Below, piece by piece: positions 2,788 through 32,896 of a stretch of 64,000 nucleotides of DNA (positions are counted from its first letter, which is position 1; each line of letters begins with the position of its first letter). Both the position numbers and the translations under genes were made by a program. The DNA lies in assembly GCF_001895025.1 (NCBI RefSeq), contig NZ_BCXI01000010.1, positions 1-64,000 on the forward strand, in the 5' to 3' direction. Below the pieces are notes generated by a model that was not told the DNA's origin, did not search any database, and saw only the letters and a program-made list of their open reading frames with translations. Source of the DNA: Rhodococcus zopfii NBRC 100606 = JCM 9919. Its GTDB lineage: Bacteria > Actinomycetota > Actinomycetes > Mycobacteriales > Mycobacteriaceae.

Positions 2788-2799
2788 CGCAGCTCCCGT

Positions 2800-4093: not shown

Positions 4094-4138
4094 GGGAACC
4101 TCGCGTGTCGAAGTGGGAGGGACGGGGACGATCCGGCG

Positions 4139-5335: not shown

Positions 5336-5411
5336 GGATGTTCCTTTTCGGGGCGGGATGCTCAGGGACGAACGCAAGTGTGGTGTGGCTCTCACCCGAA
5401 ACGAACAGGCC

Positions 5412-5428
5412 TTCTCATTGAACGAGAA
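5412..5428. promoter_or_regulatory. Short inverted repeat upstream of pobA
   Basis: TTCTC (5412-5416) and GAGAA (5424-5428) form a 5-base inverted repeat spaced by 7. It overlaps the stop codon of the IclR gene and lies 77-93 bases upstream of the pobA start. IclR regulators of pob/pca genes bind palindromes in this position, so it could be an operator, but the arms are short and it may be chance. Confidence 0.25.
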
Positions 5429-6200: not shown

Positions 6201-6320
6201 GCTCCGATTATCGCCGCCGGCGCGGAGCGCACCGTCGTCGAAACGCGGCGGCAACAATCGATCCCTACCGTCACACCGGTGCCCGGTTCGAGACGGGCCG
6301 ACGAAGGGAACGGTGGCCCG

Positions 6321-7868
6321 GTGAGCAGCGGCAGGCGGGGAGTTGGCGGTTCGCGGATCGGTGGCGCGCTCGCCGCCGCCATCGCGAGATCCTGGAACAC
6401 CGAACCTGCCGCGGCGCCGGTGTTCTCGCCGCTACGGGCGCTCGGCCGACGGCAGCTGTCCCAGGTGGACCTGATCGGGCAGTCGCTGTCGACCGTCGCG
6501 CCGGCGACCGGGATGATCTTCATCGCCGCCTGGATCGTCTCGGCGGAACCCGGCTTCGGCGGTCTGGCCGCGATCCTCGGGACCACCGCGGTCGTGGTCG
6601 CCGTCGCCTACTGCATCACCCAGTTCACGCGACGCCTCGCCGCCGCAGGCTCGCTGTACAGCTTCGCTTTCCACGGGCTCTCGCGCCGCGCGACCCTGAC
6701 CGTCGGGGCGGCACTGCTGCTCGCCTATCTCGGCATCTCGATCTCGGTGCTCGCGAACTCCGCCGTCAGCCTTCTCGGGATCGGGACCGCATTGGGGATC
6801 GAGCTGCCGGGCACGGGACCGCTGCTGCTCGCGGCCGCGCTGGTCGCCGGGACGGTCGCGGTGATCACCGTGCGCGGGGTGCGATTCGCGACCCGCGCGA
6901 TCCTCCTCGTCGAGGCCTGCTCGCTCGTGTTGATCGGCATCCTGATGCTCGCCGGACCCGACCTCGACGGCACCGGCGGTGGCCCTGCGGTATCGGGGAC
7001 GCTGCCGTTCCTGGCGATGACGGTCGTGTTCAGCATGGCCGGTTTCGAGAGCGCCGCGTTCTTCGGAGCGGAGGCGAGGCGGCCGCTGACGACCGTCTCG
7101 CGTGCCGTGCTCGTCACCCCGGTGGTGTGCGGGGCCGTGTTCGTCTTCGCGGGCTGGGCCGCGATGTCCGGGCACGCCGACTCGGTCGTCGCGGCCTACT
7201 TCGACGGCACCGCGTCCGGGGCGAGCCTCGGGATGGTGATCGCGGTGAAGATCGGGGTGACCTGCTCGTGGCTCGCCTCCACCCTCGGATGCGCGCAGGC
7301 CGGATCCCGCCTGCTGCTGGCGATGGGCATCGAGGGAACCGTGCCCAGGTCGCTGTCGCGGATCCACGATCGGCTGCGCACCCCGTACGTCGCCGTCGGC
7401 TGGTTCACGCTGGCGAGCGCGATCGGCGCGTGGGTGTATCTGCTGGTGTTCGTGGGGGATTCCACACCGTTCGACGGTTTCGTCGAAGTCGCGATCGTCA
7501 CCGCCTACACACTGCTCGCGGTGTCGTGCCTTCGGTTCCTGCGACGGATCGGGGAGGACGCTCCGTCGACCACCGCATTGTCGGCCGGCGTTGCCGCCGT
7601 CGGCGCGGGCCTGCTCGGATATCTGGTGCTCGACGGCATCACGCACGGACTGTGGGCGATGCCGGTCGCGGTGCTGATCGTCGGCGTGTCCGGCACCGCA
7701 TGGGCCTGGCTGTTGAGACGACGGCGGCCCGAGTCCCTCACGACGATGGGGTCGTTCGACAGCATCGAGACCACCGACCTGCTACCGGGTTCCGGTGAAC
7801 TTGTGCTCGGCGACGACGGCCGGCCCCAGGTCGTGACCGCGCAATCCGGTGCGGGGTTCGGGGCATGA
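6321..7868 (+). CDS. APC-family amino acid/amine permease
   Basis: 515 residues with about 12 hydrophobic segments starting near residue 45 (LSQVDLIGQSLSTVAPATGM). This opening, followed by GFGGLAAILGTTAVVV and QFTRRLAAAGSLYSFAF, is typical of the amino acid-polyamine-organocation superfamily. The substrate is unknown. GTG 6321 was chosen because AAGGGAACGG precedes it and it lies just before the first conserved stretch. The stop overlaps the next start (ATGA), so it is co-translated with the IclR gene. The neighbouring aromatic operons make an aromatic or amino acid substrate plausible. Confidence 0.8.
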   Translation: MSSGRRGVGGSRIGGALAAAIARSWNTEPAAAPVFSPLRALGRRQLSQVDLIGQSLSTVAPATGMIFIAAWIVSAEPGFGGLAAILGTTAVVVAVAYCITQFTRRLAAAGSLYSFAFHGLSRRATLTVGAALLLAYLGISISVLANSAVSLLGIGTALGIELPGTGPLLLAAALVAGTVAVITVRGVRFATRAILLVEACSLVLIGILMLAGPDLDGTGGGPAVSGTLPFLAMTVVFSMAGFESAAFFGAEARRPLTTVSRAVLVTPVVCGAVFVFAGWAAMSGHADSVVAAYFDGTASGASLGMVIAVKIGVTCSWLASTLGCAQAGSRLLLAMGIEGTVPRSLSRIHDRLRTPYVAVGWFTLASAIGAWVYLLVFVGDSTPFDGFVEVAIVTAYTLLAVSCLRFLRRIGEDAPSTTALSAGVAAVGAGLLGYLVLDGITHGLWAMPVAVLIVGVSGTAWAWLLRRRRPESLTTMGSFDSIETTDLLPGSGELVLGDDGRPQVVTAQSGAGFGA

Positions 7869-8617
7869 CCGCACACGTCGACTCCGCGGTGGGATTCGGC
7901 GGGCAGCAGCCGAAGGCGGTGCGCAAGGCACTGGTCATGCTCGAAGCGGTCGCGCACCTCGGACCCGGTGCGACCGCGAAGGAAATTGCCCGGTTCGCGG
8001 GGGTCGCGCCGACCACCGCCTACCGCATGCTCAATCTGCTCGTCGCGGACGGATTCCTGGTTCGGGTGCCGGACCTGTCGGGATTCGCGCTCGGCCGGCG
8101 CACCGCCGAACTGTCCCGCGCCGCGGTCGCGACGGACCCGTCGCCGACCCTGCACGACACGGTCGAGGATCTACGCTCGCACACCCGGTTCGGGTTGCAC
8201 GTGGCGTCGTTCGCCGGTGGCCGGCTGCGGTTCGTCGACCAGGATCCCGATCACGAGATCGTCGGGATCGCGCTGCTCGCGAAGAACCTCCACGCGAATG
8301 CGCTGGGGAAGGTGATGCTCGCGCACAACCCGGCACTCGGGGTCGGGCTCGAGCTGCGCCGCCTGACCGAGCACACCGTCTGCGATCCCGAGCTGCTGCG
8401 CGTCGAACTGTCCCGCGCGGAACTGGCGGGCCACGCCTTCGAGAACCAGGAATGCCGGCTGGGGCGGTCCGCGCTGGCCGTGCCGATCCGCAACCACGCG
8501 GCCGAGGTGGTCGGCGGTCTGTGCCTGCAGGGGTCGCCGCTGCGCGTCTCGCCGACCGACCCGGAACAACTGCGGTTCCTGCACGAGGGATCGCGCCGGC
8601 TCACCGGCTTGTTGTAG
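7865..8617 (+). CDS. IclR-family transcriptional regulator
   Basis: 250 residues. Winged helix at about residues 15-75 (AVRKALVMLEAVAHL, IARFAGVAPTTAYRML); C-terminal IclR ligand domain with HANALGKVMLAHNPALG and RLGRSALAVPIRN. It is coupled to the permease by an ATGA overlap, which suggests that it senses the transported compound or a product of it. The gene ends just before a strong two-way hairpin. Confidence 0.85.
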   Translation: MTAHVDSAVGFGGQQPKAVRKALVMLEAVAHLGPGATAKEIARFAGVAPTTAYRMLNLLVADGFLVRVPDLSGFALGRRTAELSRAAVATDPSPTLHDTVEDLRSHTRFGLHVASFAGGRLRFVDQDPDHEIVGIALLAKNLHANALGKVMLAHNPALGVGLELRRLTEHTVCDPELLRVELSRAELAGHAFENQECRLGRSALAVPIRNHAAEVVGGLCLQGSPLRVSPTDPEQLRFLHEGSRRLTGLL

Positions 8618-8619
8618 CT

Positions 8620-8668
8620 CCGGCCGGATCTCGAACCGCACACCGACTGCGGCTCGAGATCCGGCCGG
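8620..8668. terminator. Bidirectional hairpin between convergent genes
   Basis: A 21-base stem (8620-8640 with 8648-8668) with one wobble mismatch and a 7-base loop lies two bases after the IclR stop and 27 bases before the end of the flavin monooxygenase gene on the other strand. No T-run follows, as usual in high-GC actinobacteria. Confidence 0.75.
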
Positions 8669-8694
8669 GCCCCGGGCGGCCGCGGATCGTCCCG

Positions 8695-10218
8695 TCAGCG
8701 TGCCGGTGTGCGGTGCACCGGCCGTCGCACCGACGCCTCGCCGATTCGGCGGCGCAGCTTCTCGGTCGACGCGCGGTAGGCGCCGGGATCGGCAGGGAGC
8801 AGCCACTGGCGGAATCGGACGAGCGGTCCGACGTTCACGCCGATCTCGTCGAGCACTTCGTCGACCTGGCGCAGCGAGAACGGGATGATGTTCGTCCCCC
8901 GCGCGTGTTTGCCCTCGGTCCGATCGATCATCCAGCGCAGCCGCTCTCTGGCGAAGGCACTGCGTTCGGCCTCCGGCGGGAGATCCAGGTGCTCTGTCAG
9001 ATAACTGACGACCCACATCGCGGCGGCTTCGGCGCTGAGAGGACTGAACAAGGAGGAACCGTAGCCGACGAAGAACAGCCGTGGAACGTCGAGAGGCAGG
9101 ATCTGCCGGTACAACTCGAAGTTTCCGTCCTCGTCGGTGAGGCGCCGTTGCAGGTCTCCGCGGAGGAACGGGACGTGCTGGCGGAATCCGGTGGCGCACA
9201 CGACCGCGTCGGCCGCGCGGACCGTGCCGTCGGAGAGTTCGACGGTCGGCCTGCCGTCCTTCTCGTGGAGGCCGGCGATGACCTGTCCGCGGTGGACGTC
9301 GATGATGCCGTCCCGGACCTTCTCGTAGAAGTTTTCGGTGGCGAGACCGACCGCGTGCCGGACGATGCGTTCGAACGGGCCCGGCGGCACCAGACCGACA
9401 CGATCGAGGATCAACTGGCGCCTCGTGACGGCGCCGACCGCGTTGAGCAGACCGTCGCGCAGGAAGCGGCCCGGTCCGGTGAGAAACCGCCCGAATCCGC
9501 GCTGCTGGTGGTGTTCGAACAGTCCCTCGTTGAGCCGGGTGAGCAGAAGGTACTTGTAGTTGAGCACGCCTGCCAGCCGACGAGGCATCTTCCACGTGAC
9601 TTCCCTGGCCACCACGGTCGTCGACCGGCCCACCTCGCTCAGGGCTTCGGCGATGTCGCACGCGGACTTGCCGTATCCGACGACCACGATGTCCTTGCCC
9701 ACCGCGTCCGACAGTTCGTTGAAATCGGATGCCGCGCACACCCGGCCCCCCGCCGCGACGAATTCGTCGAGGCCGGGGTATTCGGGGACGAATGGGTCGC
9801 AGAAGATGCCGTTCGCGACGATCAGATGATCGAATTCGGTTTCGGCGGTGGCACCCGTGCCGATCTCGCGGATTCGCAGGGTCCATCTTCCGGCCGTCTC
9901 GTCCAGGTCGGCGGATTCCACCGCGTGACCGAGCCGGATCAGGCGTTCCAGATCGAACCGGCGGGCGTAGTCGTGCAGATAGGCCTGGACCTGCTTGCCG
10001 GTGGGCCATTCGGGATACTCGTCGGGCATCGGGAAGTCCGAGAACCGGTACGTCCCTTTGTTGTTCTGGGTGGTCACCCCGGGATACCGCCGGGTGCGGC
10101 TCCATACCCCGCCGATGTCGGGGGCGGATTCGAACACCGTGACATCGAATCCGAACTCGGTGAGTAGCTTGGCGGTGCACAGCCCGGAGATGCCGGCACC
10201 GACTATTGCGATCGTCAT
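8695..10218 (-). CDS. Flavin-containing monooxygenase (CzcO/FMO type)
   Basis: 507 residues with two dinucleotide folds: FAD motif IAIVGAGISGLCTAKLL at the N-terminus and NADPH motif VVVGYGKSACDIAEAL near residue 180. It is closest to FMO-like proteins that oxygenate heteroatoms or do Baeyer-Villiger chemistry. The FMO fingerprint between the folds is degenerate: I find no FxGxxxH histidine, only FVAAGGRVCAASDF. The last gene of the eight-gene operon, 72 bases after the hydrolase, it may have its own translation start. ATG 10216-10218 is preceded by GGAGAG. Substrate unknown. Confidence 0.8.
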   Translation of the reverse strand: MTIAIVGAGISGLCTAKLLTEFGFDVTVFESAPDIGGVWSRTRRYPGVTTQNNKGTYRFSDFPMPDEYPEWPTGKQVQAYLHDYARRFDLERLIRLGHAVESADLDETAGRWTLRIREIGTGATAETEFDHLIVANGIFCDPFVPEYPGLDEFVAAGGRVCAASDFNELSDAVGKDIVVVGYGKSACDIAEALSEVGRSTTVVAREVTWKMPRRLAGVLNYKYLLLTRLNEGLFEHHQQRGFGRFLTGPGRFLRDGLLNAVGAVTRRQLILDRVGLVPPGPFERIVRHAVGLATENFYEKVRDGIIDVHRGQVIAGLHEKDGRPTVELSDGTVRAADAVVCATGFRQHVPFLRGDLQRRLTDEDGNFELYRQILPLDVPRLFFVGYGSSLFSPLSAEAAAMWVVSYLTEHLDLPPEAERSAFARERLRWMIDRTEGKHARGTNIIPFSLRQVDEVLDEIGVNVGPLVRFRQWLLPADPGAYRASTEKLRRRIGEASVRRPVHRTPAR

Positions 10219-10290
10219 GGATTCTCTCCAGTCGCCAGGATTTCCGGCCACGATGCGGCATCAACGCCCGTGCGCCGGGAGGGTGGAAGG

Positions 10291-11133
10291 CTACGCGGTG
10301 AGGCCTTCGCGGAAGAACCCGTCGACGAGCCGGTGGAATCGTTCGGCGTGTTCGATCTGGGTCCAGTGCCCGCAGCGGCCGAATGCATGGAGCTGCGAAT
10401 TGGGAATGGTGTGGAACATGTGGAGGGAGGCGTCGAGCGGTACCACCCGGTCCTCGCGGCCGTGCAGGATCAGGACTTCGTGCTCGATCGCGGCGAGTTC
10501 GCCGTCCGGCACGATCTGGGCGTCCAGCCAGCGTTGCCGCGGCGCCGGGAAGACCTGTTCGAAGGCTTCCTGGGCGCCGGGCCGGATCGTCGCACGGTAG
10601 CGTAGTTCGGCGAGCTCGTCGGTCACGAGTGACCGGTCGTACGCCATGATGTCCATGATGCGCTTCATGTTCTCGACCGACGGTGTGTAGCCCCACAGGG
10701 CGTCGAGTTCGTCGGTGAACTCGATCTGCACACCGCCTGCGCCCATCAGCACGATCCTGTCGAGCCGGTCGGGATGCCGGGTCGCCAGGTGCAGGGCCAG
10801 CCCGCCACCGAACGAATTGCCGACCACGTGCGCCTTCTCGATGCCGAGGTGGTCGAGAAGGCCGATGATCTGGTCGATCCATGTATCGAAGATCGAGAAC
10901 CGCACCGGGTCGGGCAGCGTGGTGTATCCGAACCCCACCAGATCCGGTGCGATGACACGGAATCCCTTCGACAGCACGGGGATGAGTCCTCGCCAGTTCG
11001 CCCAGGCGGAGACACCCGCCCCGGAGCCGTGCAGCAGCAGGACCGGGTCGCCGGTGCCGACGTCGTGGTAGTTGGTGTCGAACGTGCCTGTGCGCAGGCT
11101 ATGTCCGATCTCGGGATTGGCGACGTTCGTCAT
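10291..11133 (-). CDS. Alpha/beta hydrolase, meta-cleavage-product hydrolase type
   Basis: 280 residues resembling DmpD/TodF/BphD enzymes, which hydrolyse C-C bonds of ring-fission products. Motifs: LLLHGSGAGVSAWANWRG (oxyanion hole), GNSFGGGLAL (nucleophile Ser near 107), HGREDRVVP (Asp) and GRCGHWTQIEHAERF (His). It lies in an operon with an extradiol dioxygenase, which fits: the dioxygenase opens the ring and this enzyme cuts the product into a dienoate and an acid. Which acid is released cannot be told. It follows the racemase-like gene by 12 bases. Confidence 0.85.
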   Translation of the reverse strand: MTNVANPEIGHSLRTGTFDTNYHDVGTGDPVLLLHGSGAGVSAWANWRGLIPVLSKGFRVIAPDLVGFGYTTLPDPVRFSIFDTWIDQIIGLLDHLGIEKAHVVGNSFGGGLALHLATRHPDRLDRIVLMGAGGVQIEFTDELDALWGYTPSVENMKRIMDIMAYDRSLVTDELAELRYRATIRPGAQEAFEQVFPAPRQRWLDAQIVPDGELAAIEHEVLILHGREDRVVPLDASLHMFHTIPNSQLHAFGRCGHWTQIEHAERFHRLVDGFFREGLTA

Positions 11134-11145
11134 GATCGTTTCCGT

Positions 11146-11904
11146 TCAGTTCTGCAGGACCGGGGGACGGACAGCGGACAGGAGCCCGTCCTGGACGAGG
11201 CTCGGGGAAGGGTAGGCGCGTTTGCTGTGCGAGAGACCGGTCGTGACGAGGAGTTCGCACATCTTGTACGCCACGACACCGGGATTGAGCACCGGGACGT
11301 CGAGAACCCTCTCGAGGTAGGCGTGGCTCTGGTGCATGGTCGTCGAACCCAGAATGATGACGTCCGCACCGTCCTCGTCGATCGCTGCCCGCGCTTCCCG
11401 TTCGAGCGCCTCGAACACGAAATCCTCCTTACCGGCCAGAAGTTCGGCTGCATTCGGCGGTACCCCGATGTCGCGCACCGACGCCAGCTTCGCGGTCAGG
11501 CCGTGTTCGCGGGCAGCCTTGAAGTACAGTTCGTGCCATTGCGGCCACATCGTCACCACCGAGAACTTCTTGCCGAGCAGTGCGGCGAGAAGCATCGAGG
11601 CCTGGCTGGGGGCTACCACCGGAATGGTCAACCGTGAGCGCAGTGCGGCCAGAGCGGAATCGCTCATCGAGTTGACACACACCGCCGCGTAGCCCTGTTC
11701 TTCTGCGCGACAGCCCGCTTCGAGCACGAACGCGTCGGCCAGAGTCGTCTCGTAGGCGCTGTCGAGGGACGTGCCGCCGGCCTGGGCGCAGACGAAGACG
11801 TTCTCGAAGCCCGGAAACACGATCGCGGGCGGAATCTGGGCGGCAAAGGCGCCCAACGCCTCCGGCGGTACCGGAACGGGCACGATGTTGAGAACCTTGT
11901 TCAC
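11146..11904 (-). CDS. Asp/Glu/hydantoin racemase superfamily protein lacking both catalytic Cys
   Basis: 252 residues. The fold-level signatures of the hydantoin racemase family are present: a hydrophobic strand then NSMSDSALAAL at about 78-88, LGSTTMHQ at 185-192 and PVLNPGVVAYKM. In normal racemases the two strands carry ACFGDPG and LGCAGM; here the Cys positions are Ser79 and Ser187, although Cys76 lies three residues earlier. The nearby gene at 20912-21658 keeps both Cys. The enzyme is therefore unlikely to be an ordinary racemase; a lyase, hydrolase or decarboxylase role is possible. The GTG start overlaps the upstream stop (GTGA). Confidence 0.75.
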   Translation of the reverse strand: MNKVLNIVPVPVPPEALGAFAAQIPPAIVFPGFENVFVCAQAGGTSLDSAYETTLADAFVLEAGCRAEEQGYAAVCVNSMSDSALAALRSRLTIPVVAPSQASMLLAALLGKKFSVVTMWPQWHELYFKAAREHGLTAKLASVRDIGVPPNAAELLAGKEDFVFEALEREARAAIDEDGADVIILGSTTMHQSHAYLERVLDVPVLNPGVVAYKMCELLVTTGLSHSKRAYPSPSLVQDGLLSAVRPPVLQN

Positions 11905-13241
11905 AGTTCGAGTTCCTCTCGGGTACGAGTGAGGGTGTCGACGACGGCGTACACGACGGCGCGTGCCGCGGTCATCACGTCGCCGACGGAGGCGACGCCC
12001 ATGCCGCCGAGGCCTTCGTTCAGTTCGGCGGGGGCGGCGGCCGGCGGCCAGGGATAACCGATACGGGCACAGGGAACGCCGAGTCTGCGGATGAGGGTGC
12101 CGTCGGTTTGCCCGCCGAGCAGGGGAGTCGATTCGTACGGGCGGCCCTCGACCTCCTCCCAGCCGCGACGGCAGGACTGGATGATCCAATTCTCCGGGTC
12201 GGTGGCGCCACCGGGCAGTGAGCCGTACATGTCCCAGTCGAGTTCGAAGTCGGGATGTGCAGCCCGGATCCGGTCGATCAGCCGGGCGAACTGGTGGCGC
12301 ACGTCCGCGGGGGTGGTCCGGGGGTTCACGCGCACGTCGAGAAAGATCTCGGTGGTGGCCGACGGGAACGCCGGCTTGTCCGGATTTCCGGATCGGATCG
12401 CCGAGATCCAGCCCTCCGGAAGGGTCGATCCCGACGTGTTGCGTGCGGTGTACTCGGGAAGCCACGCTTCGATCTCCTGGACGACGGTGGCAGCCGGGAC
12501 GATGGACGAACGGAATCCCGGTGTTCCCCGGCTGATTCCCGCGTACCCGAAGGTTCCGCGGACGGACACCTTGAACCAGCACATCCCCGGTTCCTCCGGG
12601 TAGACCGCCCACCACGGCTTGAACACCACGGCATGGTCGGGCATCGCCCCGTGTGTGAGCAGGTGGAAGACCCCGCTGCTCATTCCGACGTTGTCGCGAG
12701 CGCTCATGGACACCGGCATCCCGCCGCCTGCGAACCCGATCGTCAGGTCGCCCCGAAGGGGAATTCCCGCCTCGACGACCGCGTGCGCGACTTCCGTCAG
12801 TCCTGCGACCATGCACTTGGGGTTCGAGGCGCCGAGTCCGATGACGAGATCGCCGTCGACAACGGCCCGGGGAATCATGTCCGGTCGCAGTTCGGGTCCG
12901 ACCCAGGGGACGTCTGCTTCGGGATCGATGTGCGTGTCGATCGGCGCGTAGAGCAGCAGTCTGCTGCCGCCGCCGCTGCCGCGGTGTTCACCGAGCGCGT
13001 TCCCCGTGTGCTCGCTCACCGGCTGGTACCGGGCGTCGATCCCGACCGTCCCGCGCAGGTAGTCGGCCATGAACTCGGACGCCGGCCGTTCCCGCCCGGT
13101 CGGGCTGTGGATGTCGATCAGCGCGACGAGCAGGTCGCGGAACCGGTTCGGATCGAGTCGCGCGCACGCGGCCTCGTACATCTCCCGTCGTTCCGCGTCG
13201 AACGGTAGGTGTCGTGTCGGGATGTCCGTCGAGGTGGTCAT
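11901..13241 (-). CDS. M20-family-like metallohydrolase with altered metal site
   Basis: 446 residues resembling M20 deacylases/peptidases (ArgE/DapE, carbamoylases). Recognisable parts are ALIDIHSPTGRE at about 48, LLYAPIDTHIDP in place of the GHxDxV strand, GLGASNPKCM in place of GxGASDMKG, and GGQTDGTLIRRLGVPCARIGYP near the C-terminus. The canonical bridging Asp is Asn here, and no Glu-Glu pair is found in the segment GFAGGGMPVSMSARD where DEE is expected. So catalysis may differ from the family. ATG 13239-13241 overlaps the amidase stop. It probably acts on an amide or ureido intermediate; inference from the operon. Confidence 0.7.
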   Translation of the reverse strand: MTTSTDIPTRHLPFDAERREMYEAACARLDPNRFRDLLVALIDIHSPTGRERPASEFMADYLRGTVGIDARYQPVSEHTGNALGEHRGSGGGSRLLLYAPIDTHIDPEADVPWVGPELRPDMIPRAVVDGDLVIGLGASNPKCMVAGLTEVAHAVVEAGIPLRGDLTIGFAGGGMPVSMSARDNVGMSSGVFHLLTHGAMPDHAVVFKPWWAVYPEEPGMCWFKVSVRGTFGYAGISRGTPGFRSSIVPAATVVQEIEAWLPEYTARNTSGSTLPEGWISAIRSGNPDKPAFPSATTEIFLDVRVNPRTTPADVRHQFARLIDRIRAAHPDFELDWDMYGSLPGGATDPENWIIQSCRRGWEEVEGRPYESTPLLGGQTDGTLIRRLGVPCARIGYPWPPAAAPAELNEGLGGMGVASVGDVMTAARAVVYAVVDTLTRTREELEL

Positions 13242-14524
13242 CGGCGCTCCTCGGGGAGGGGGCACCGCTGGGCGATGCCGATCCGGTCCGTCAAATACGA
13301 GGCGATGTCGACGAGGCCGCGGTCGCTGTGTGCGGGCCCGATGAGCTGTATCGCCAGGGGTAGATCGTGTTCGCCCCTCCCGGTGGGCATCCCGATCGCG
13401 GGGGTCCCGGCGATGCTGGCCAGTTTGTTGAACACCGGATCGCCGGTGCCGGCGTCGAGGCGGGGTGCTTCTCCCGGCGATGCGAGGGTGAGCAGCACAT
13501 CGAACCCGGCATGCGCCGTGGCGACGAAATGCCGTGCTTCGCGCAGGGCCGCCCGGGCGTTCTGGATGTCACCGGCCGAGGCGTCACGGCCGGCGGCCAG
13601 GAACCGCACGAGCTGGTCGCTGATCGTGCCGGTGGGGCGCGAGATCCGGTCGGTGAGGGCGGCCGATGCCTCCGCGGCCATGATCAGCGTGTGTGCCTCG
13701 TCGATCGCAGCGAGGTGATCCGGAACGTCGACGTCGGCGACCTCTGCGGCATGGCTGCGCAGATCGACGACGATGCGCTCGAGCATCGCCGCGGCCGCCG
13801 GACTGGCCCGGTTCGCCCACGGAGGCCGCAGCACTCCGATGCGGAGTCCCGGCAGGCCGGGCAGGGGCGTGTTCGCGTGGTCGTTGCGGAGTTGCCGATC
13901 GAGGTGGCCGAGCAGTGCTGGGTGGCGGGCGAATCCGCCTACTGTATCGAAGGTCAGTGCGACCGGCAGGACGCCGTCGAACGGCCACCGCCCGTAGGTG
14001 GGTTTGAGCGTGTACACGCCGCAGAACGCGCCGGGACGCAGCACGGATCCCGCGGTTTGGGTGCCCAGCGCGAGAGGGACCTGGCCGTCGGCGACCGCGG
14101 CCGCGGAACCGCTCGACGATCCCCCCGGTGAATGCTCGAGGTGGTGTGGGTTGCGGGTGGCGGTCGGCCGGTACGTCGCGAACTCGGTGGTCGTGGTCTT
14201 GCCGAGGATCACCGCGCCGGATTGCCGGAGGCGGGAAATGACGTGTGCGTCCTTCGGCGGCCGATGACCCTGCCACAGCTCCGAGCCGTAGGTGGTCGGC
14301 TGATCGGCGGTCTCGATGATGTCCTTGATGCCGACCGGTGTGCCGTGCAGCGTCGAGACCGGTGCGGTGCGGTCCCGCTCGCGTGCCTGGGCCAGGGCCA
14401 GGTCGGGATCGAGAAACGCCCAGGCCTTGATCTCCCGGTCGCGGGCATCGATGCGGCGCAGTAGCCTCTCGACGGTCTCGGTGCTCGAACCTGCTGCGGT
14501 ATAGGTGGTTTCGGTATCGATCAC
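13238..14524 (-). CDS. Amidase-signature-family hydrolase
   Basis: 428 residues. The Ser-cisSer-Lys machinery is visible: Lys67 in GTPVGIKDII, the Gly/Ser-rich GGSSSGSAAAV at 134-144, and Ser160 in GTQTAGSVLRPGAF. Such enzymes hydrolyse amides, ureides or carbamates (ureidomalonase and allophanate hydrolase belong here). The GTG start overlaps the extradiol dioxygenase stop (GTGA), and the stop overlaps the M20-like start (ATGA), so the product is made in fixed ratio with both neighbours. Substrate not deducible. Confidence 0.85.
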   Translation of the reverse strand: MIDTETTYTAAGSSTETVERLLRRIDARDREIKAWAFLDPDLALAQARERDRTAPVSTLHGTPVGIKDIIETADQPTTYGSELWQGHRPPKDAHVISRLRQSGAVILGKTTTTEFATYRPTATRNPHHLEHSPGGSSSGSAAAVADGQVPLALGTQTAGSVLRPGAFCGVYTLKPTYGRWPFDGVLPVALTFDTVGGFARHPALLGHLDRQLRNDHANTPLPGLPGLRIGVLRPPWANRASPAAAAMLERIVVDLRSHAAEVADVDVPDHLAAIDEAHTLIMAAEASAALTDRISRPTGTISDQLVRFLAAGRDASAGDIQNARAALREARHFVATAHAGFDVLLTLASPGEAPRLDAGTGDPVFNKLASIAGTPAIGMPTGRGEHDLPLAIQLIGPAHSDRGLVDIASYLTDRIGIAQRCPLPEERR

Positions 14525-15402
14525 TGCCGACCGGCCTTCTGCGGCTCGTGCCCCCACCGGGACGGTGAGCGATAGGTCTTGACGACCCAGCCATCCTCGA
14601 CGAGATCCCCGCCGTAGCCGACCTCGATGCCGAAGCCGGACGGGGTCGACAGATAGAACGAGGTGACGCCGTCATTGGTGTGTCGGCCGAAGGTCATCTT
14701 GAGGTCGATGCCGGCGGCGTTGATCCGGTCGTAGGCCCTGCCTACGTCGTCGAGAGAGGCCACCTCGATCATCAGGTGATTGAAGTCCCCGCCGTTGAAG
14801 TCGAAACACTCGTTCATCAGGGCCAGACTGTGGTGGCGCGGATTGCAGTGGAGGAACGTCGCATCGGCGCCGTCCCACACGATGTAGTCCGAAAGGTCGA
14901 ATCCCAGAACGCGCGTGTAGAAGTCGACCGCCTCGGGATACTTCCGGCACATCAGCACGACGTGTCCGAGGCCCAGTTCTCCGGTGACGAATCCGCTGAT
15001 GACACCGCCGGGCCGGAGGGGCTCGTGGTCGATCGTCGGGCCGAAGCAGATCTCGTTCGGGAAACCGTCGGCGTCCAGAAAACGGAACGAGGCCACCGCG
15101 TTGCGGGATTCGGGGTCCGCTTCCGGCGCCCATTCGACGTCGATGCCCTCGGCGCGAACACGATCGGCGAGCGTGCGCAGTTCCTCCGGGCTGTCGACCT
15201 CCCAGGTGATCGCTCGAATCCTGTCCTCGGCGGCCGGATACAGCGCGATCCGGTACCGGTGGTCGTCGATGCGGATCAGCAGGGGATCGTTCTCGTTCGC
15301 ACGGGGCTGTGTCTGGAGGCCGAGCAGATCGACGAGGAGATGCTGCCAGGCTGGAAGATCGGCTACGTCGACGCTGAGCGCGCCGAGTCTCGAAATGCTC
15401 AT
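14521..15402 (-). CDS. Extradiol ring-cleavage dioxygenase (BphC type, two-domain VOC)
   Basis: 293 residues, the standard length of type I extradiol dioxygenases. Fe(II) ligands are readable at almost the BphC numbering: His147 (GLGHVVLM), His209 (DFNHLMIE) and Glu260 (SGFGIEVGYGG). His241 and Tyr250, which shape the active site, are also present, as is a His pair at 190-191. It should cleave a catechol-type ring next to the hydroxyls, in meta position. Partner genes are the reductase and Rieske oxygenase upstream and the C-C hydrolase downstream. Confidence 0.92.
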   Translation of the reverse strand: MSISRLGALSVDVADLPAWQHLLVDLLGLQTQPRANENDPLLIRIDDHRYRIALYPAAEDRIRAITWEVDSPEELRTLADRVRAEGIDVEWAPEADPESRNAVASFRFLDADGFPNEICFGPTIDHEPLRPGGVISGFVTGELGLGHVVLMCRKYPEAVDFYTRVLGFDLSDYIVWDGADATFLHCNPRHHSLALMNECFDFNGGDFNHLMIEVASLDDVGRAYDRINAAGIDLKMTFGRHTNDGVTSFYLSTPSGFGIEVGYGGDLVEDGWVVKTYRSPSRWGHEPQKAGRQ

Positions 15403-15449
15403 GTGATTCGCAATCTGTGCTGGAGTGGTTCGAATACGGCGGGACTCGA

Positions 15450-16508
15450 TCAGCTCGGCAGGAACTGCTCGGAGTGGATCCGGTCGCGGGGCATGCCGAG
15501 CACTTGCAGGCGTTCGTGCGCGGCGTCGAGCATTGCGGGCGGGCCGCACAGGTACGCGGACGATCGCGGGTCCGCGACGTCCTCAGGGGTGAGGACACTC
15601 ACCGGGTTTCCGGTGAGAATCCCGGACCGATCGGTGGGTTCGTCGACGACGACCCGCACGTCGAGTCCGGTGGTGAAGCCGCGGCGCGCCTCGATCTCGT
15701 CGAGATGGAACAGATCCGCCATCCGGGCGCACCCGAAGACGAGTCGGATCGGGTGCCGTTCGCGCGCCGTCTGCAGGGTTTCGAGCATCGACAGCATCGG
15801 GGCCAGTCCGGTTCCGCCGGCGATCATCAGGACTGGGCCGGGAGAGTCCTCATCGAGTCCGAAAGATCCGAAGGGGCCTTCCATTTCGAGCTCGTCGCCG
15901 ACAGCCGCCCGATTCCTCAGATAGTCGGACATGGCGCCGTCGGGGAGCAGACGGATCGTGAACGCCAGGCGCCGGTTGTGCCGCTGACCCGATGCCATGG
16001 AGTACGAACGCCATTCCGCGGTTCCGGGTATGCGGAACCTGACGTACTGGCCGGGGCGGAATGAGAATCTGGGTGATTTCGGCAGCCGTACGACCAATTC
16101 GACGACCGTGTCGGCGAGCCGATCGAGCCCGGCGACCTTGACCGTGGTCGCGACGACGGGATGGTCGTCGAGCATGGCTGCCGGATAGTCGAGGTCGACG
16201 TCGGTCTCGGCGAGGGCATGGGACTGGCACAGCAGTCGCATGCCCTCACCGATCTCGTCGGAGCGCAGTGGGTAGACGCGCCCCTCCGCCATCGCCAGTT
16301 CTCCGGTCCTGACCCGGCCGACGCATGTTCCGCAGGTGCCGATCCGGCACTGGTTCACCAGTCGTGCCCCCGCGGTCTCCGCTGCCTCGAGGACGGTGGA
16401 GCCCGTAGGGACCACGATTTCCTTCGTGACGTCGGCGTAGTTCAGGCGTACGCAGTGGCCGGTACCTGCTGAGGTGCCGGGCCGGATTTCGGTCGGAGAA
16501 AGCGACAT
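15450..16508 (-). CDS. Class IB oxygenase reductase ([2Fe-2S]-FAD-NAD)
   Basis: 352 residues in three domains. An N-terminal plant-type ferredoxin domain has C54-x4-C59-x2-C62-x31-C94. A FAD-binding domain follows with RFRIPGTAEWRSYSMAS, and an NAD domain with MIAGGTGLAPMLSML and YLCGPPAMLDAA. This matches BenC, XylZ and the 2-oxoquinoline 8-monooxygenase reductase. It passes electrons from NADH straight to the Rieske oxygenase; no separate ferredoxin gene is present nearby. It begins three bases after the oxygenase gene. Confidence 0.92.
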   Translation of the reverse strand: MSLSPTEIRPGTSAGTGHCVRLNYADVTKEIVVPTGSTVLEAAETAGARLVNQCRIGTCGTCVGRVRTGELAMAEGRVYPLRSDEIGEGMRLLCQSHALAETDVDLDYPAAMLDDHPVVATTVKVAGLDRLADTVVELVVRLPKSPRFSFRPGQYVRFRIPGTAEWRSYSMASGQRHNRRLAFTIRLLPDGAMSDYLRNRAAVGDELEMEGPFGSFGLDEDSPGPVLMIAGGTGLAPMLSMLETLQTARERHPIRLVFGCARMADLFHLDEIEARRGFTTGLDVRVVVDEPTDRSGILTGNPVSVLTPEDVADPRSSAYLCGPPAMLDAAHERLQVLGMPRDRIHSEQFLPS

Positions 16509-16511
16509 CGG

Positions 16512-17705
16512 TCAGTCCTCGTCCTCGTAGGGGGATTCGAAGAAGCCGCGCGGGTGACGGGCGGCCATCTTGCGCCACGCGATGATGGAATAGTCCATGT
16601 CGCAGAGGACTTCGTTGTTCCATCCGTCGAAGCGCGTGTAGTGCTCCTCGGTGGCCTCGCGTGCGAACACGTCGCTGTTGTTGAATCCCTCCAGCGCCAG
16701 CGGCAACATGAAGTTGTCGTACTTGAAGTTGAATTCGGCGATCTCGTCGTCGGTGCTCGCGCGGGTGACGATGACCTCCCAGTATTCGTGGTGGTGGTCG
16801 TCGATGGGCACGTAGAACTCGTACTGGACGTGGTCGGTGATGGGCCAGTGTTCGACCATGAGAACACCGGGTACCCACAGGGACGTGCGGAAGTAGTGCG
16901 GCACGGTACCGCGAGCCTTCATGTTGACCTTGGGGTTCGCCAGAACGGGCTCGTACAGATCCGGCCGGTCGTACCGGTTCATGACGCCCTTCGGGCCGTT
17001 CTCGATGTCGATCTCCTCGGTCGCCGTGTCCGTCAGGGCGTTGACGCCGAGCGGGAGGGCGCGGTCGAGCGCGACGAGGATCTGGTTGTCCCAGTGCACG
17101 AGCAGGTGTCCCGGGTCGAGCCCGTTCTCCGCGGCGAGTCGCCAGTTGCCGACGAGTTTGCGGTGGATGCCTCGGATGACGATGCCGTCGTCGAGAAGGT
17201 GAGGAACAGGAGAGTTGTTGGGATCGTTGGCTACTCGCATGGGAAGGTCGGACTCGAGGGGCGGTGGCGTGCCGTAGTCCTGGTCGCCGACGAAGACATA
17301 GATGATGCCGTTGACTTCTTCGACAGGATAGGTGCGGATACCGGCCTTGCCGATCAGCGAGTCGTTGGGATTGCCGACGATGGTGGTCAGGCTTCCGTCG
17401 TCGAGACCGTAGGTGAATCCGTGATACCAGCACGTAATTGTGCCCTCGGACAAGCACATCGGCTTTGCGGAGAGCTTGACTCCACGGTGGATGCACCGGT
17501 CCGAGACGGCGTAGGTCTTGCCGGCGGAGCGACGAAGGGCGATGTCGTGACCGCCGATCGTGATCCCTTTGGCGGTACCGTCTTCGAGTTCGTGCGACAT
17601 CAGGGCGGGGTACCAGTGGTTGGCGTAGCCCCAGTCCGCTTGGACGTAGGGCGCGTACTGCCGGGTGACTCCGGCGGAGGATCCACTGTATGAGGAAACG
17701 GACAT
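16512..17705 (-). CDS. Rieske oxygenase, CarAa/2-oxoquinoline-8-monooxygenase-like
   Basis: 397 residues, oxygenase alpha subunit without a beta-subunit gene. Rieske cluster: C71-x-H73 (CIHRG) and C92-x2-H95 (CWYHG). Mononuclear iron ligands: His200, His204 (ENGLDPGHLLVH) and Asp345 (EGFNNSDVFARE). The start APYVQADWGYANHWYP and the block EGFNN-DxxARE resemble carbazole 1,9a-dioxygenase CarAa and OxoO, homotrimeric oxygenases acting on fused N-heterocycles. The first gene of the operon, facing a divergent MarR-type gene. No dihydrodiol dehydrogenase is nearby, which suits angular dioxygenation or monohydroxylation. True substrate unknown. Confidence 0.9.
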   Translation of the reverse strand: MSVSSYSGSSAGVTRQYAPYVQADWGYANHWYPALMSHELEDGTAKGITIGGHDIALRRSAGKTYAVSDRCIHRGVKLSAKPMCLSEGTITCWYHGFTYGLDDGSLTTIVGNPNDSLIGKAGIRTYPVEEVNGIIYVFVGDQDYGTPPPLESDLPMRVANDPNNSPVPHLLDDGIVIRGIHRKLVGNWRLAAENGLDPGHLLVHWDNQILVALDRALPLGVNALTDTATEEIDIENGPKGVMNRYDRPDLYEPVLANPKVNMKARGTVPHYFRTSLWVPGVLMVEHWPITDHVQYEFYVPIDDHHHEYWEVIVTRASTDDEIAEFNFKYDNFMLPLALEGFNNSDVFAREATEEHYTRFDGWNNEVLCDMDYSIIAWRKMAARHPRGFFESPYEDED

Positions 17706-17808: not shown

Positions 17809-17836
17809 ACTCTACTCAATATTCGTGAAGAGTCAA
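17809..17836 (-). promoter_or_regulatory. Predicted sigma-A-type promoter of the catabolic operon
   Basis: On the minus strand TTGACT (17836 down to 17831) and TAGAGT (17814 down to 17809) are spaced by 16 bases. They resemble -35 and -10 boxes and lie about 100 bases upstream of the Rieske oxygenase start. One copy of the repeated motif TTGAGTAGAG overlaps the -10 box, as expected of a repressor site. Confidence 0.5.
17810..17819 (-). promoter_or_regulatory. Operator-like motif TTGAGTAGAG, copy 1
   Basis: Perfect 10-base motif, read on the minus strand, overlapping the predicted -10 box of the catabolic operon. An identical copy in the opposite orientation lies at 17911-17920. The pair brackets the gap between the oxygenase operon and the MarR-type gene, so the MarR-type protein is the natural candidate binder. 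Confidence 0.5.
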
Positions 17837-17972: not shown

Positions 17973-18608
17973 ATGAATGCCGCCGAACAACCGGCCACCG
18001 GCGAGGCCGCCGAACTCGATGCGGGTCGTCGCTGGCATCTGGCGCAGGACGCCTACGAAGAAGCGATGACCTCGTTCGAGTTCGCGGTTCTTCAGGTGCA
18101 GCGCGGCTTCGAACGCTTCGCGGTGCAGGCCGTGCACGTCGCGGGCGACCTCGACCTGGCGTTCAACGAGGTCGTAGCGTTGCACGTCGTCAGGATGCAG
18201 GAGCGGCCGAAGGACACCGCCACGATCGCTCAGCTCACCAACCGCGACGATCTACCCAATCTGCAGTACAACCTGCGCAAACTCGTCAGCCTGGGGCTCC
18301 TCGAACGGAGCAAGTCGGGCACGTCGTCGGTCTTCGCGATCACGCCCGCGGGGAGGGAGATCACCGACCGGTATGCGGAGTTGCGCCGTCATTCGTTGAC
18401 CTCCAACCTCGCCGAACTGACGGATGTGACGACGAAACTGCACCACGCGATCCGCTCGATGCAGATTCTTACCGGGCTGTACGAGGCGGCGAGCCGCGAT
18501 CTGGCGACGATCAACCCGACGGTGCTGTTCACGGACCGAGCGGATTCGGCACCGGAAGTGGACGACGACCCGGAGGTCTCGCCGCCGGCGCGCAGACGTC
18601 GATCCTGA
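17973..18608 (+). CDS. MarR-like winged-helix regulator
   Basis: 211 residues. A predicted winged helix spans about residues 60-130: FNEVVALHVVRMQERPKD, IAQLTNRDDLPNLQYNLRKLVSLGLLERSKSG and VFAITPAGREITDRY. The tail after residue 190 is acidic then basic and probably disordered. Family members respond to aromatic ligands and repress catabolic genes. It is divergent from the Rieske operon and is flanked by the inverted 10-base motifs, so repression of that operon and of itself is likely (inference). Confidence 0.8.
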   Translation: MNAAEQPATGEAAELDAGRRWHLAQDAYEEAMTSFEFAVLQVQRGFERFAVQAVHVAGDLDLAFNEVVALHVVRMQERPKDTATIAQLTNRDDLPNLQYNLRKLVSLGLLERSKSGTSSVFAITPAGREITDRYAELRRHSLTSNLAELTDVTTKLHHAIRSMQILTGLYEAASRDLATINPTVLFTDRADSAPEVDDDPEVSPPARRRRS

Positions 18609-18653: not shown

Positions 18654-20054
18654 TCAGTCGGCGAGGAGCGCCTTCTTCTGGACTTTCCCCATCTCGTTGC
18701 GGGGTAAGGAGTCGACCACCCGGACTTCACGGGGGCGCTTGTGAACCGACAGCGACGCCGCGACGAAGTCGATGATCGCTGTGGTGTCGGGGTTGTCGCC
18801 CACGACGTAGGCCACGATGCGCTGGCCGAGGTCGGCGTCGGGCTCGCCGACCACAGCGGCCTCGCGGACCCCGGGATGGGCGAGAAGCGCGTGCTCGACC
18901 TCGCCCGCGCCGATTCGATATCCACCCGACTTGATCATGTCGACCGATTCCCGGCCGACGATCCGGTGGAAGCCGCCCCGGTCGACGACGGCGATGTCAC
19001 CGGTCCTGAACCAGCCGTCGGGTGTCATCGTTTCGGCGGTCTTGACCGGATTGTTCAGGTAACCGGAGAACAACGTCGGGCCCGCGATCTCGAGCTGGCC
19101 GAGCGTCTCGCCGTCGTGCGGGGCGAGTTCGCCGCTCTCGGTACGCAGCCGTGTGCGCACCCCGTCGAGGGGTAGTCCCACCCAGCCGGGCCTGCGCTCG
19201 CCGTCGACGCGGGTGCTGATCGTGATGACGGTTTCGCTCATGCCGTACCGCTCGATCGGCGCGGAACCGGTCAGCGCAACCAGATCCTCGAACACGGGTA
19301 CCGGGAGCGGAGCGCTTCCGGACACGAGCAGGCGTGCTGACGACAGTGCCCGTGCCGCAGCGGGTTCCGCGCACACACGGGACCACACGGTGGGCACGCC
19401 GAAATACAGTGTGCCCTGGGCTGCGGCATACCGGTCCGGTGTCGGGCGCACCGTGTGCACCAGCGGCGAGCCGATCCGCAGTGCACCCAGGACACCCAGG
19501 ACGAGACCGTGCACGTGGAACAGCGGAAGCCCGTGGACCAGACGGTCCCCGGGAGTCCAGTCCCATGCGCGCGCAAGCCCGTCCACGCTCGCGGCGATCG
19601 CGCGCCGAGGCAGGACGACCCCCTTGGGGGCTCCCGTGGTGCCCGATGTGTAGACGATCAGTGCGGGAGCATCGGCCGGTGGTTCGGGCCGGACCGTGGC
19701 CGATCGTCGGCTCGGATCGATCGGGACGGACGGAATGGGAAGGCCGGGCCGGGGATCGCCCAGCCAGAGCTCCGCTCCCGAATCGGCGAGGATGTGCTGC
19801 AGTTCGCGTCCGCCGGAATCGGGTGGAACCGGCACGGCGGCGACACCGGCGAGCAGGCACCCGACGACGGCGACGACGGTCTTCACATCGGCGCGCGCGT
19901 CGATGGCGACTCGCTCGGCCCCGGAGATGCGATCGGCGACCGCGGCGGCGGCCCCGACCAGTTCCTCGCGGGTGAGTGTGTCGTCTCCGACGGTGACCAG
20001 CGGCGCAGCATCGTCCCGTGCCTCGGACAGCGCAGTCAGCAGGGTTGCGGGCAT
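18654..20054 (-). CDS. matB: Malonyl-CoA-synthetase-like acyl-CoA ligase
   Basis: 466 residues of the AMP-forming ligase superfamily. The P-loop-like LIVYTSGTTGAPKGVVLP, LPLFHVHGL, RYGMSET, GWFRTGDIAVVDRGGFHRIVGR and the C-terminal EMGKVQKKAL (catalytic Lys) are all present. The block IERYGMSETVITISTRVDGERRPGWVGLPLDGV is the region where MatB enzymes have their malonate signature and is similar to them. It would make malonyl-CoA from malonate and CoA. ATG 20052-20054 starts the conserved part. It is divergent from an IclR gene with a large palindrome between them. Confidence 0.72.
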   Translation of the reverse strand: MPATLLTALSEARDDAAPLVTVGDDTLTREELVGAAAAVADRISGAERVAIDARADVKTVVAVVGCLLAGVAAVPVPPDSGGRELQHILADSGAELWLGDPRPGLPIPSVPIDPSRRSATVRPEPPADAPALIVYTSGTTGAPKGVVLPRRAIAASVDGLARAWDWTPGDRLVHGLPLFHVHGLVLGVLGALRIGSPLVHTVRPTPDRYAAAQGTLYFGVPTVWSRVCAEPAAARALSSARLLVSGSAPLPVPVFEDLVALTGSAPIERYGMSETVITISTRVDGERRPGWVGLPLDGVRTRLRTESGELAPHDGETLGQLEIAGPTLFSGYLNNPVKTAETMTPDGWFRTGDIAVVDRGGFHRIVGRESVDMIKSGGYRIGAGEVEHALLAHPGVREAAVVGEPDADLGQRIVAYVVGDNPDTTAIIDFVAASLSVHKRPREVRVVDSLPRNEMGKVQKKALLAD

Positions 20055-20086
20055 CGGTTCCAACCTTTCGGGTTGTGCCGTATTGT

Positions 20087-20109
20087 GGAACACTGTGCTA
20101 CAGTGTGGT
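20087..20109. promoter_or_regulatory. Palindromic operator between matB-like gene and iclR
   Basis: The perfect inverted repeat ACACTGT-GCT-ACAGTGT (20090-20106) is extended by GGA on the left and GGTCC on the right. It sits in the 113-base gap between the divergent matB-like and IclR genes, 33 bases before the matB-like start. IclR proteins bind palindromes of this form, so it is probably the operator of the adjacent regulator. Confidence 0.65.
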
Positions 20110-20167
20110 CCGATGAAGCTACAAGCGCGTCCGGATCCCGTCAAGGGACGGCGTTGAGGAGGCAAGG

Positions 20168-20902
20168 GTGAACAGCGTGCTCACGGCGCTGCGTGTATTC
20201 GAGGCTGTCGCCGCGTCCCAACCCGTCGGCGTCAGTGAGCTTGCCCGAGGTCTCGACATCCCGAAGAGCACGGTGCAACGCTGCCTCAGAACTCTGCAGC
20301 GGGCCGGTTGGGTGCGCGCAGACCCGGCGGATTCGAGCTGGTCGATCACCGGCAGGGCCTTCACGATCGGCAGTGCCGTCGCGTCGACCGATCATCTGCG
20401 CGAGGCGGCTCTCCCGGAGTTGGCGGCGCTCCAGGCCGAGGTGGGTGAGACGATCCACCTCGCGGTTCCCGACGGCGACGAACTGGTGCTCGTCGAACGA
20501 CTCGACAGTCCGCATCAGCTCCGCGCTTTTCTCGCGCTGGGTACCCGCCTGCCCCTGCACGCGGCGGCCACCGGCAAGGCGTACCTGGCGACTCTTCCGG
20601 ACCGGGAGATCACGTCCTACCTCGCGACCGGGCCGGTCAAGGTCACCGAGCGGACGCAGACGGATCCCGCCGCCCTGCGGGCAGAGATCGAACTGATCCG
20701 CAAGCGTGGTTACGCCACCACCGAACAGGGTTTGCACGAAGGTATTTCGGCGGTCGCAGTGGCGCTCCGCGATCGTTCGGGAACCGCGCGGGCGTGTTTC
20801 AGCATCTCGGGCCCGTCGTCCCGGGTCACGCCCGACCTGTTCGAGGCCTACGCAGCGAAGGCGCACGGCACCCGAGATGCCATCGAACGGATGCTGCGGT
20901 GA
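20168..20902 (+). CDS. IclR-family transcriptional regulator
   Basis: 244 residues from GTG 20168 with AGGAGG-like GAGGAGGCAAGG just upstream. Winged helix at residues 1-65 (ALRVFEAVAASQPVGVSELARGLDIPKSTVQRCL), effector domain with VPDGDELVLVERLDSP, AATGKAYLATLPD and RGYATTEQGLHEGISAVAV. Divergent from the MatB-like ligase and ends 9 bases from the racemase gene on the other strand. Likely controls the ligase gene. Confidence 0.88.
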   Translation: MNSVLTALRVFEAVAASQPVGVSELARGLDIPKSTVQRCLRTLQRAGWVRADPADSSWSITGRAFTIGSAVASTDHLREAALPELAALQAEVGETIHLAVPDGDELVLVERLDSPHQLRAFLALGTRLPLHAAATGKAYLATLPDREITSYLATGPVKVTERTQTDPAALRAEIELIRKRGYATTEQGLHEGISAVAVALRDRSGTARACFSISGPSSRVTPDLFEAYAAKAHGTRDAIERMLR

Positions 20903-21658: not shown

Positions 21659-21663
21659 GTGTA

Positions 21664-23181: not shown

Positions 23182-23335
23182 GTGTGCTCCTGGACATCGG
23201 CGGGGGAGAAGTGCCGAAACCGTTGTCGGCGACAGGCCTCGGCTGAATTCCCGCGTGAGGGTGTGTGTCCGGAACGCCAGCAACGACGATGACGTCCGAT
23301 GGGGAAGACGCTATCGGCGTCGTGTTGCCGCTGTA

Positions 23336-24058: not shown

Positions 24059-24195
24059 GGCGGACTCCTCTCGGACGGAACTGGACGCCGTCGTCACCGA
24101 CGCCGGGCGTGGAGCCGGCAACGCGGGCGACCGTATCCCCCAGATGTTTCGGACACGTGTCGTCGATGGTGGAGGTCCGGCGTAGGGTGGCCGCC

Positions 24196-32751: not shown

Positions 32752-32784
32752 ATGCGGAATCTAGCAATTCCGGCTTTCACAGCT

Positions 32785-32792: not shown

Positions 32793-32896
32793 TTCACAGG
32801 GTTGGATCCGCAGAAATCCCCATGTGCAAGGCATTTTCCAGCCCACGTGGTGTGCATAACCTGCAAAACAGCCCAGTTGTCTGTTGGAGGTTCGCA

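Follow-up and report, generated by a model that had tools for sequence, protein, structure and literature searches.

Organization of the operon

We analyzed a 64,000-nucleotide stretch of the genome of Rhodococcus zopfii NBRC 100606 = JCM 9919 (assembly GCF_001895025.1, contig NZ_BCXI01000010.1, positions 1 to 64,000), referred to in the following as the window. The host genome is 6.3 Mb in size, and the minus strand of this contig (contig 10) carries eight genes between positions 8695 and 17705, lettered A to H, which fill this stretch. An earlier reading of the same DNA, the original prediction, had their number, strand and outer coordinates right. The genes are as follows.

16512..17705, minus strand: gene A, OxoO-like Rieske oxygenase, proposed 2-quinolone-type 8-monooxygenase (PF11723, 213 bits, and a Rieske domain)
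15450..16508, minus strand: gene B, class IB-type reductase with 2Fe-2S, FAD and NAD domains (Fer2, FAD_binding_6, NAD_binding_1)
14521..15402, minus strand: gene C, two-domain extradiol dioxygenase (TIGR03213, 271 bits against a cut-off of 366; BphC 1han, 199 bits)
13238..14524, minus strand: gene D, amidase-signature hydrolase, proposed lactam (or primary amide) hydrolase (PF01425, 253 bits)
11901..13241, minus strand: gene E, M20-fold protein, proposed hydrolytic ring deaminase (match to 5k8p)
11146..11904, minus strand: gene F, Asp/Glu/hydantoin-racemase-like protein (PF01177, 104 bits; 3qvk, a putative hydantoin racemase)
10291..11133, minus strand: gene G, CumD-like C–C hydrolase of a meta-cleavage product (1iun, 376 bits)
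8695..10218, minus strand: gene H, flavoprotein resembling flavin-containing monooxygenases (FMO) (PF00743; 8z17, 144 bits; alternative GTG start at 10251)

The junctions also agree with that prediction: C–D (GTGA), D–E (ATGA) and E–F (GTGA) overlap by four bases, while A and B lie 3 bases apart and F and G 12 bases apart. The spacing between B and C is 47 bases, given a start of C at ATG 15402; the family and homologue searches used the end 15411, which adds three in-frame residues, a negligible difference. Between G and H there are 39 bases if H starts at GTG 10251, or 72 if it starts at ATG 10218, which is preferred for its better ribosome site. The originally predicted gene families hold, with the qualification that "racemase-like" and "FMO" apply in part, as signature residues are missing from both proteins. 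None of the NCBIfam matches listed for the operon proteins reaches its curated cut-off, and NCBIfam accordingly gives no exact name.

Conservation and co-occurrence of the genes

The neighborhood was searched for elsewhere by tblastn with 18 window proteins against 93 loci (E ≤ 1e-15, with matches covering 40% or more of the query), which yielded 17 window-type loci (L015–L030 and L036). The order A to G is kept in 16 of these, more than expected by chance; the remaining locus, L030, is without F. H is the last gene in 14 loci (not in L017, L029 and L030). The loci belong to Rhodococcus, Prescottella, Nocardia, Mycolicibacterium, Mycolicibacter and Pseudonocardia, plus one uncultured bacterium (L030), and the nearest relatives of the operon, by name, are those of Rhodococcus, Prescottella and Nocardia. 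The eight genes form one real, widely conserved operon.

Among 301 genomes of the family, A occurs at 90% identity or more in 12, with one additional match at 39%. Exactly these 12 genomes carry an F orthologue, and the same 12 carry an E orthologue, which is fragmented in three of them (G075, G193 and G223). Among the window-type loci, E is broken in L018, L019 and L020; distant E relatives (at most 44% identity) are found in 20 other genomes of the family. This all-or-none inheritance of A, E and F indicates that the genes serve one task.

The oxygenase and its reductase

When the protein encoded by A was searched against the PDB with phmmer, its nearest solved relative was OxoO (1z01, 410 bits), the 2-oxo-1,2-dihydroquinoline 8-monooxygenase of Pseudomonas putida 86; carbazole oxygenases scored 298 bits or less. 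A and OxoO are 48% identical, and the Rieske CxH/CxxH and 2-His-1-Asp iron-ligand motifs are kept in all 24 oxygenase sequences compared. A midpoint-rooted FastTree phylogeny of 82 sequences placed OxoO together with eight oxygenases from beta- and gammaproteobacteria (76–82% identical to OxoO) in a clade with support 1.0. The clade of the window's oxygenase was sister to it under this rooting, the joint group of 37 tips having a support of 0.991. The carbazole oxygenase CarAa, 38–40% identical to the actinobacterial oxygenases listed, fell outside this group. The comparison with CarAa and OxoO that the original prediction had called for is in this way decided in favor of OxoO. By its similarity and its place in the tree, we propose that A is a hydroxylase of the 2-oxoquinoline 8-hydroxylase type.

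B has MmoC/BenC-like matches below their cut-offs and adjoins A in all 17 window-type loci. This single 2Fe-2S/FAD/NAD reductase beside the oxygenase suggests a two-component system in which A and B would be partners.

The eight OxoO orthologues (loci L041, L042, L043, L044, L046, L058, L064 and L094) share much of the neighborhood: B stands beside the oxygenase gene in 8/8, D in 7/8, E in 6/8, C in 4/8 and F in 1/8. D is missing at L044 and E at L043 and L044, where short contigs end first. In the three betaproteobacterial loci D comes after E. An upstream hydrolase in the gammaproteobacterial loci is 27–28% like G, and the G motifs differ in the three that were compared. Two of the loci, L046 and L064, are from metagenome-assembled genomes (MAGs) titled Klebsiella pneumoniae, a title that we doubt. 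The Paraburkholderia locus L041 holds a second OxoO-like Rieske gene (1938–3383, 46% identical to A) about 8 kb from the first; its neighbors encode porin, short-chain dehydrogenase/reductase, alcohol-dehydrogenase-like, BON and hemerythrin proteins, from which the substrate could not be guessed. In the Cupriavidus record, the stretch carries no annotated gene.

E is a relative of an aromatic aminohydrolase

E gave a Pfam M20 match below the cut-off, and its best sequence match in the PDB was 5-nitroanthranilic acid aminohydrolase (5NAA-A; 5k8p, 74 bits). With a profile built from 26 E sequences, 5k8p scored 141 bits and the second-best M20 protein 38 bits; the match spans approximately residues 24–326 of 446. 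Asp102, Asn140, Glu216, Glu217 and Asp380 are invariant in the 26 sequences. The 5-nitroanthranilate deaminase is a hydrolytic enzyme that forms a phenol from an aromatic amine (PMC4539516). The sequence evidence places E with the 5NAA-A family, and we propose a deaminase activity for it. The original prediction had missed this relationship, as it had the loss of both catalytic cysteines from F described below.

The nearest solved relative of D is malonamidase E2 (227 bits), and its catalytic motifs are well kept, with the Lys present in 22 and the Ser in all 24 of the sequences compared. F matched the putative racemase structure 3qvk, which has Ser at both catalytic places, slightly better than 3qvj with Cys (76 and 71 bits, respectively). 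That F is an isomerase is our guess. An ordinary maleate isomerase was considered as well; none occurs among the PDB profile matches of F at E 0.01, so this too is a guess.

Ring cleavage and the lower pathway

All 22 C sequences that were compared retain the His-His-Glu iron ligands. For G, the cumene-type hydrolase 1iun scored by far the highest (376 bits), ahead of BphD-type enzymes (170 bits or less) and the side-chain-acid hydrolase 1u2e (144 bits). Its Ser, Asp and His motifs (GNSFG, GREDR and CGHWTQ) are present in 18 of 21 sequences, the other three being remote. Directly after G, genes resembling those for a hydratase, an acetaldehyde dehydrogenase and an aldolase follow in 3 of the 17 window-type loci (L017, L022 and L028). 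In L028, the acetaldehyde dehydrogenase and the hydroxy-oxovalerate aldolase score above their cut-offs and the hydratase below its equivalog cut-off; the genes in L022 and L017 were assigned by similarity to L028. Since these are genes of the lower meta-cleavage pathway, G probably releases 2-hydroxypenta-2,4-dienoate. The R. zopfii genome itself has one strong lower-pathway aldolase, located on another contig.

A proposed pathway for 2-quinolone-type lactams

From the gene families, their order and conservation, the position of A in the tree, the co-occurrence of the genes and the lower-pathway genes of three relatives, we infer a set of reactions, an order for D and E, and a substrate. The operon probably degrades a lactam of the 2-quinolone type. 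There is about an even chance that the substrate is 2-oxo-1,2-dihydroquinoline itself, the compound formed first when quinoline is oxidized, or else it could be a close natural relative of that compound.

A and B would convert the 2-quinolone to 8-hydroxy-2-quinolone, hydroxylating the benzene ring position that adjoins the nitrogen. D would then hydrolyze the lactam to a 2-amino-3-hydroxycinnamate-type acid, and E would exchange the ring amino group for a hydroxyl by hydrolysis, freeing ammonium and yielding a 2,3-dihydroxycinnamate-type catechol in balance with 8-hydroxycoumarin. Because D resembles a primary-amide hydrolase, it is equally possible that E acts first and D follows on the amide. 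On chemical grounds, a conjugated side chain should aid the attack of water at the nitrogen-bearing ring carbon, which is a reason for E to act before the double bond is reduced. C would cleave the catechol adjacent to its hydroxyls (meta cleavage), and G would split the product into 2-hydroxypenta-2,4-dienoate, to be converted to pyruvate and acetyl-coenzyme A (acetyl-CoA), and a C4 diacid. The double bond derived from the ring must be cis, and F might act on it or on the diacid, which is again a guess. H and a nearby CoA ligase would be peripheral, if they are involved at all.

This scheme brings together candidate genes for ring hydroxylation, ring deamination (the role proposed for E) and meta cleavage. 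It is also in line with the original prediction that the operon serves a nitrogen-containing aromatic and can hydroxylate a ring, cleave it and break amide bonds. For Rhodococcus gordoniae JH145 grown on quinoline, a published study gives liquid chromatography–mass spectrometry masses assigned to 2-hydroxyquinoline, 2,8-dihydroxyquinoline, 8-hydroxycoumarin, 2,3-dihydroxyphenylpropionate and the meta-cleavage product of the latter; its main text names no genes (PMC9029321). The operon is present at L015 in R. gordoniae DSM 44689; the quinoline chemistry is that of the other strain, JH145.

Several observations weigh against this assignment. The identity of 48% between A and OxoO leaves room for an altered substrate, and the D proteins encoded beside the OxoO orthologues share only 31–43% identity with that of the window. 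Pro100 is invariant in the 26 E sequences where 5NAA-A keeps the His of the first M20 metal motif, a metal ligand in M20 enzymes, which is why we claim the family of E and go no further with its activity than a proposal. Asp/Glu/hydantoin racemases have two catalytic cysteines, and F has Ser79 and Ser187 at both positions, invariant in F and 17 homologues. The FMO fingerprint is FxGxxxH; at its His position, H sequences have Ala in 12 of 13 cases and Pro in one. By its matches, G is nearer to a cumene-type hydrolase, which handles an alkyl side chain, than to the kind whose substrate bears a side-chain acid. Six MAGs (L033, L034 and L037–L040), labeled Deltaproteobacteria, Proteobacteria, bacterium or Binataceae, have A, B and E without C and D, so the module is used in other combinations, and the product there must leave another way.

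The chemistry raises points of the same kind. As the reported route ends in 2,3-dihydroxyphenylpropionate, a double-bond reduction is needed, and in P. putida 86 XenA reduces 8-hydroxycoumarin during quinoline degradation (PMC5519977). Among the operon genes there is no old yellow enzyme or XenA-like 8-hydroxycoumarin reductase; seven matches to the old yellow enzyme family lie elsewhere in the R. zopfii genome. Nor does the operon hold a gene for the molybdenum hydroxylase quinoline 2-oxidoreductase (Qor), whose family has matches, at family level only, at four places in the genome. In the quinoline degrader Rhodococcus ATCC 49988, no quinoline 2-oxidoreductase is annotated (PMC6588367). Finally, JH145 on quinoline also gave a mass assigned to anthranilate, for which the study proposed a second route (PMC9029321).

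The oxygenase–aminohydrolase pair of the A–B–E MAGs may serve a different product route. A gene for a CaiB-type CoA transferase faces the A–B–E cluster of L033. Distant clusters of the types C–A–E or A–E, at 29–39% identity, lie in Rhodococcus jostii (L093, 9033–12506) and at G251 C1:150379–152842; perhaps they serve another substrate.

Alternative substrates

Of the alternatives, the one that survives best keeps the chemistry and changes the compound to another lactam or anilide, such as oxindole, 3,4-dihydro-2-quinolone, a 4-hydroxy- or alkyl-2-quinolone natural product, or an N-acyl ortho-alkylaniline. The distance between A and OxoO would allow for this, the CumD-like G suits a small or less polar side chain, and the operon is without a quinoline 2-oxidoreductase. 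Moreover, the more distant loci belong, by their record titles, to MAGs of soil, lakes and the sea, environments in which quinoline is an improbable main substrate. Nevertheless, the OxoO orthologue loci carry the same partner genes, and the side chain of a 2-quinolone product, being conjugated, should as a matter of chemistry facilitate the exchange of the ring amino group for a hydroxyl. We consider such a substrate unlikely, while giving it a real share of the probability.

Far less probable is a pathway for carbazole or another biaryl, in which A would act as an angular dioxygenase making an aminobiphenyl-diol and C and G would be of the biphenyl type. In its favor, CarAa follows OxoO among the solved relatives of A, C resembles BphC, and G is of the meta-cleavage type. 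However, CarAa lies outside the window's clade in the oxygenase tree, by which we reject carbazole as the substrate, and the amidase and the aminohydrolase would be left without a task. The carbazole extradiol enzyme has two subunits, whereas C is a single-gene enzyme of the glyoxalase fold, and G resembles CumD far more than BphD.

A hydantoin- or ureide-type pathway, with D as amidase, E as a carbamoylase-like enzyme, F as a racemase for a phenyl-hydantoin, and C and G removing the phenyl ring, is just as improbable. The combination of M20 and racemase folds is reminiscent of hydantoin operons, and nearby (20912–23283) lie genes for an NCS1 permease and for another member of the racemase family. 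Neither of these two has a homologue in the 17 window-type loci by tblastn, F has neither catalytic Cys, and 5NAA-A is the closest solved protein of E; phenyl-hydantoin, considered at first, was dropped on the last two grounds. Flavin (lumichrome), kynurenate and phenazine substrates were dropped as well, since their fused-ring meta-cleavage products are unsuited to a CumD/BphD-type hydrolase and a hydratase/aldolase route.

A 2-quinolone-type lactam thus stays the preferred substrate class. Going further, it is conceivable, if somewhat doubtful, that E founds a group of M20-fold aminohydrolases which remove the ring nitrogen from non-nitro aminophenols without the canonical metal His, that F belongs to the racemase superfamily but, free of Cys, catalyzes a new reaction (e.g., cis–trans isomerization of the C4 product), and that the operon is the first to hold all genes of the nitrogen-releasing branch of 2-quinolone breakdown, a set common to actinobacteria and proteobacteria.

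Transcription signals and surrounding genes

Three further features flank the operon.

17809..17836, minus strand: operon promoter TTGACT-N16-TAGAGT, with −35 and −10 blocks conserved upstream of A
17973..18608, plus strand: gene J, MarR-type regulator (HTH_27, PF13463), divergent from A
8616..8671, minus strand: terminator-like hairpin without a T-run, 3' of H, between convergent genes

An alignment of 18 upstream regions showed that the −35/−10 pair and a GGAGG site are conserved, more weakly in L029 and L030. The promoter scan by itself was at chance level (one found against 0.9 expected), and so was the terminator scan. The hairpin 3' of H has a folding energy of −60.9 kcal/mol and a z-score of −5.4, and none of 200 shuffled sequences was equally good. 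A J homologue lies upstream of A in all 17 window-type loci; it is divergent in 16 and without an intervening gene in 15, the exceptions being L029 and L030. The same holds upstream of A, as to its presence, at L041, L046, L058 and L094. J is likely the regulator of the operon. An inverted TTGAGTA pair upstream of A was considered as an operator and dropped, as it is not conserved in relatives.

Beyond J, an AMP-dependent CoA ligase gene and a divergent IclR regulator occupy 18654–20902. The ligase cluster accompanies the operon at 13 of the loci, and a cluster of the enoyl-CoA hydratase type does so at 7 (the family was checked in L016 only); these CoA ligase and IclR neighbors may feed or share the pathway. 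The region 20912–24415 holds the separate hydantoin/allantoin-racemase family gene (196 bits), the NCS1 permease and a GntR regulator. On the other side, an IclR-type regulator (7865–8617) faces the end of the operon, its own end touching the hairpin, and 1450–6257 is a protocatechuate-type catabolic patch with genes like those for a protocatechuate 3,4-dioxygenase beta subunit, an FAD-binding hydroxylase and a lyase, and another IclR regulator. Farther away, a short-chain acyl-CoA regulator and PrpD-like, phosphoenolpyruvate mutase/isocitrate-lyase-like and citrate-synthase-like genes (31324–36457) likely make up a methylcitrate cluster.

Comparison with known systems

The original prediction had called the aromatic substrate unidentified and known of no characterized pathway with this set of genes. 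The first statement goes too far, as A groups with OxoO, the OxoO orthologues share the neighborhood and the predicted chemistry matches the 8-hydroxycoumarin route of quinoline degradation; that route likewise fits as a characterized pathway. What stands is that the exact set A–H is new to the literature searched: in the open-licence PubMed Central texts, as far as accessible, we found no description of it, and for two steps on 8-hydroxy-2-oxoquinoline, the opening of the lactam and the deamination of the ring, no assigned gene.

OxoO/OxoR of P. putida 86 is the closest counterpart, a PF11723-type Rieske oxygenase system whose oxygenase is the nearest solved relative of A and whose orthologues share B, D and E as neighbors. 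The window differs in its phylum, in the 48% identity of A, in having the downstream set in one operon and in the absence of a Qor gene. A paper on the quinoline gene cluster of P. putida 86 (Gene 2004) may already list D- or E-like neighbors of oxoO. The 8-hydroxycoumarin route of P. putida 86 and JH145 matches the predicted order of intermediates, the release of ammonium and the meta cleavage; it differs in its XenA-kind reductase, which is not in the window operon, and D, E, F and H are without an assignment in the literature searched. The 5NAA aminohydrolase of Bradyrhizobium JS329 (5k8p) belongs to the same M20-derived group as E, for which the corresponding reaction Ar-NH2 to Ar-OH is proposed. 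It has a His where E has Pro, and the presumed substrate of E is without the nitro group. Carbazole 1,9a-dioxygenase CarAa comes next among the solved relatives of A, yet it lies outside the clade and its partner genes do not fit. The cumene and biphenyl upper pathways (CumD, BphC) match G and C in sequence and catalytic residues, but differ from the operon in the entry reaction and in the nitrogen-handling genes.

The D–E pair conserved beside the OxoO orthologues offers two candidates for lactam opening and loss of the ring nitrogen, and replacing an aromatic amine by hydrolysis is a reaction seldom met and of interest for biocatalysis. If the proposal is true, the operon would explain the removal of 2-quinolones from soil, water and wastewater by actinobacteria and others. 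Measured against these systems, the operon represents a known degradation route in variant form and supplies candidate genes for those of its steps whose enzymes are not named.

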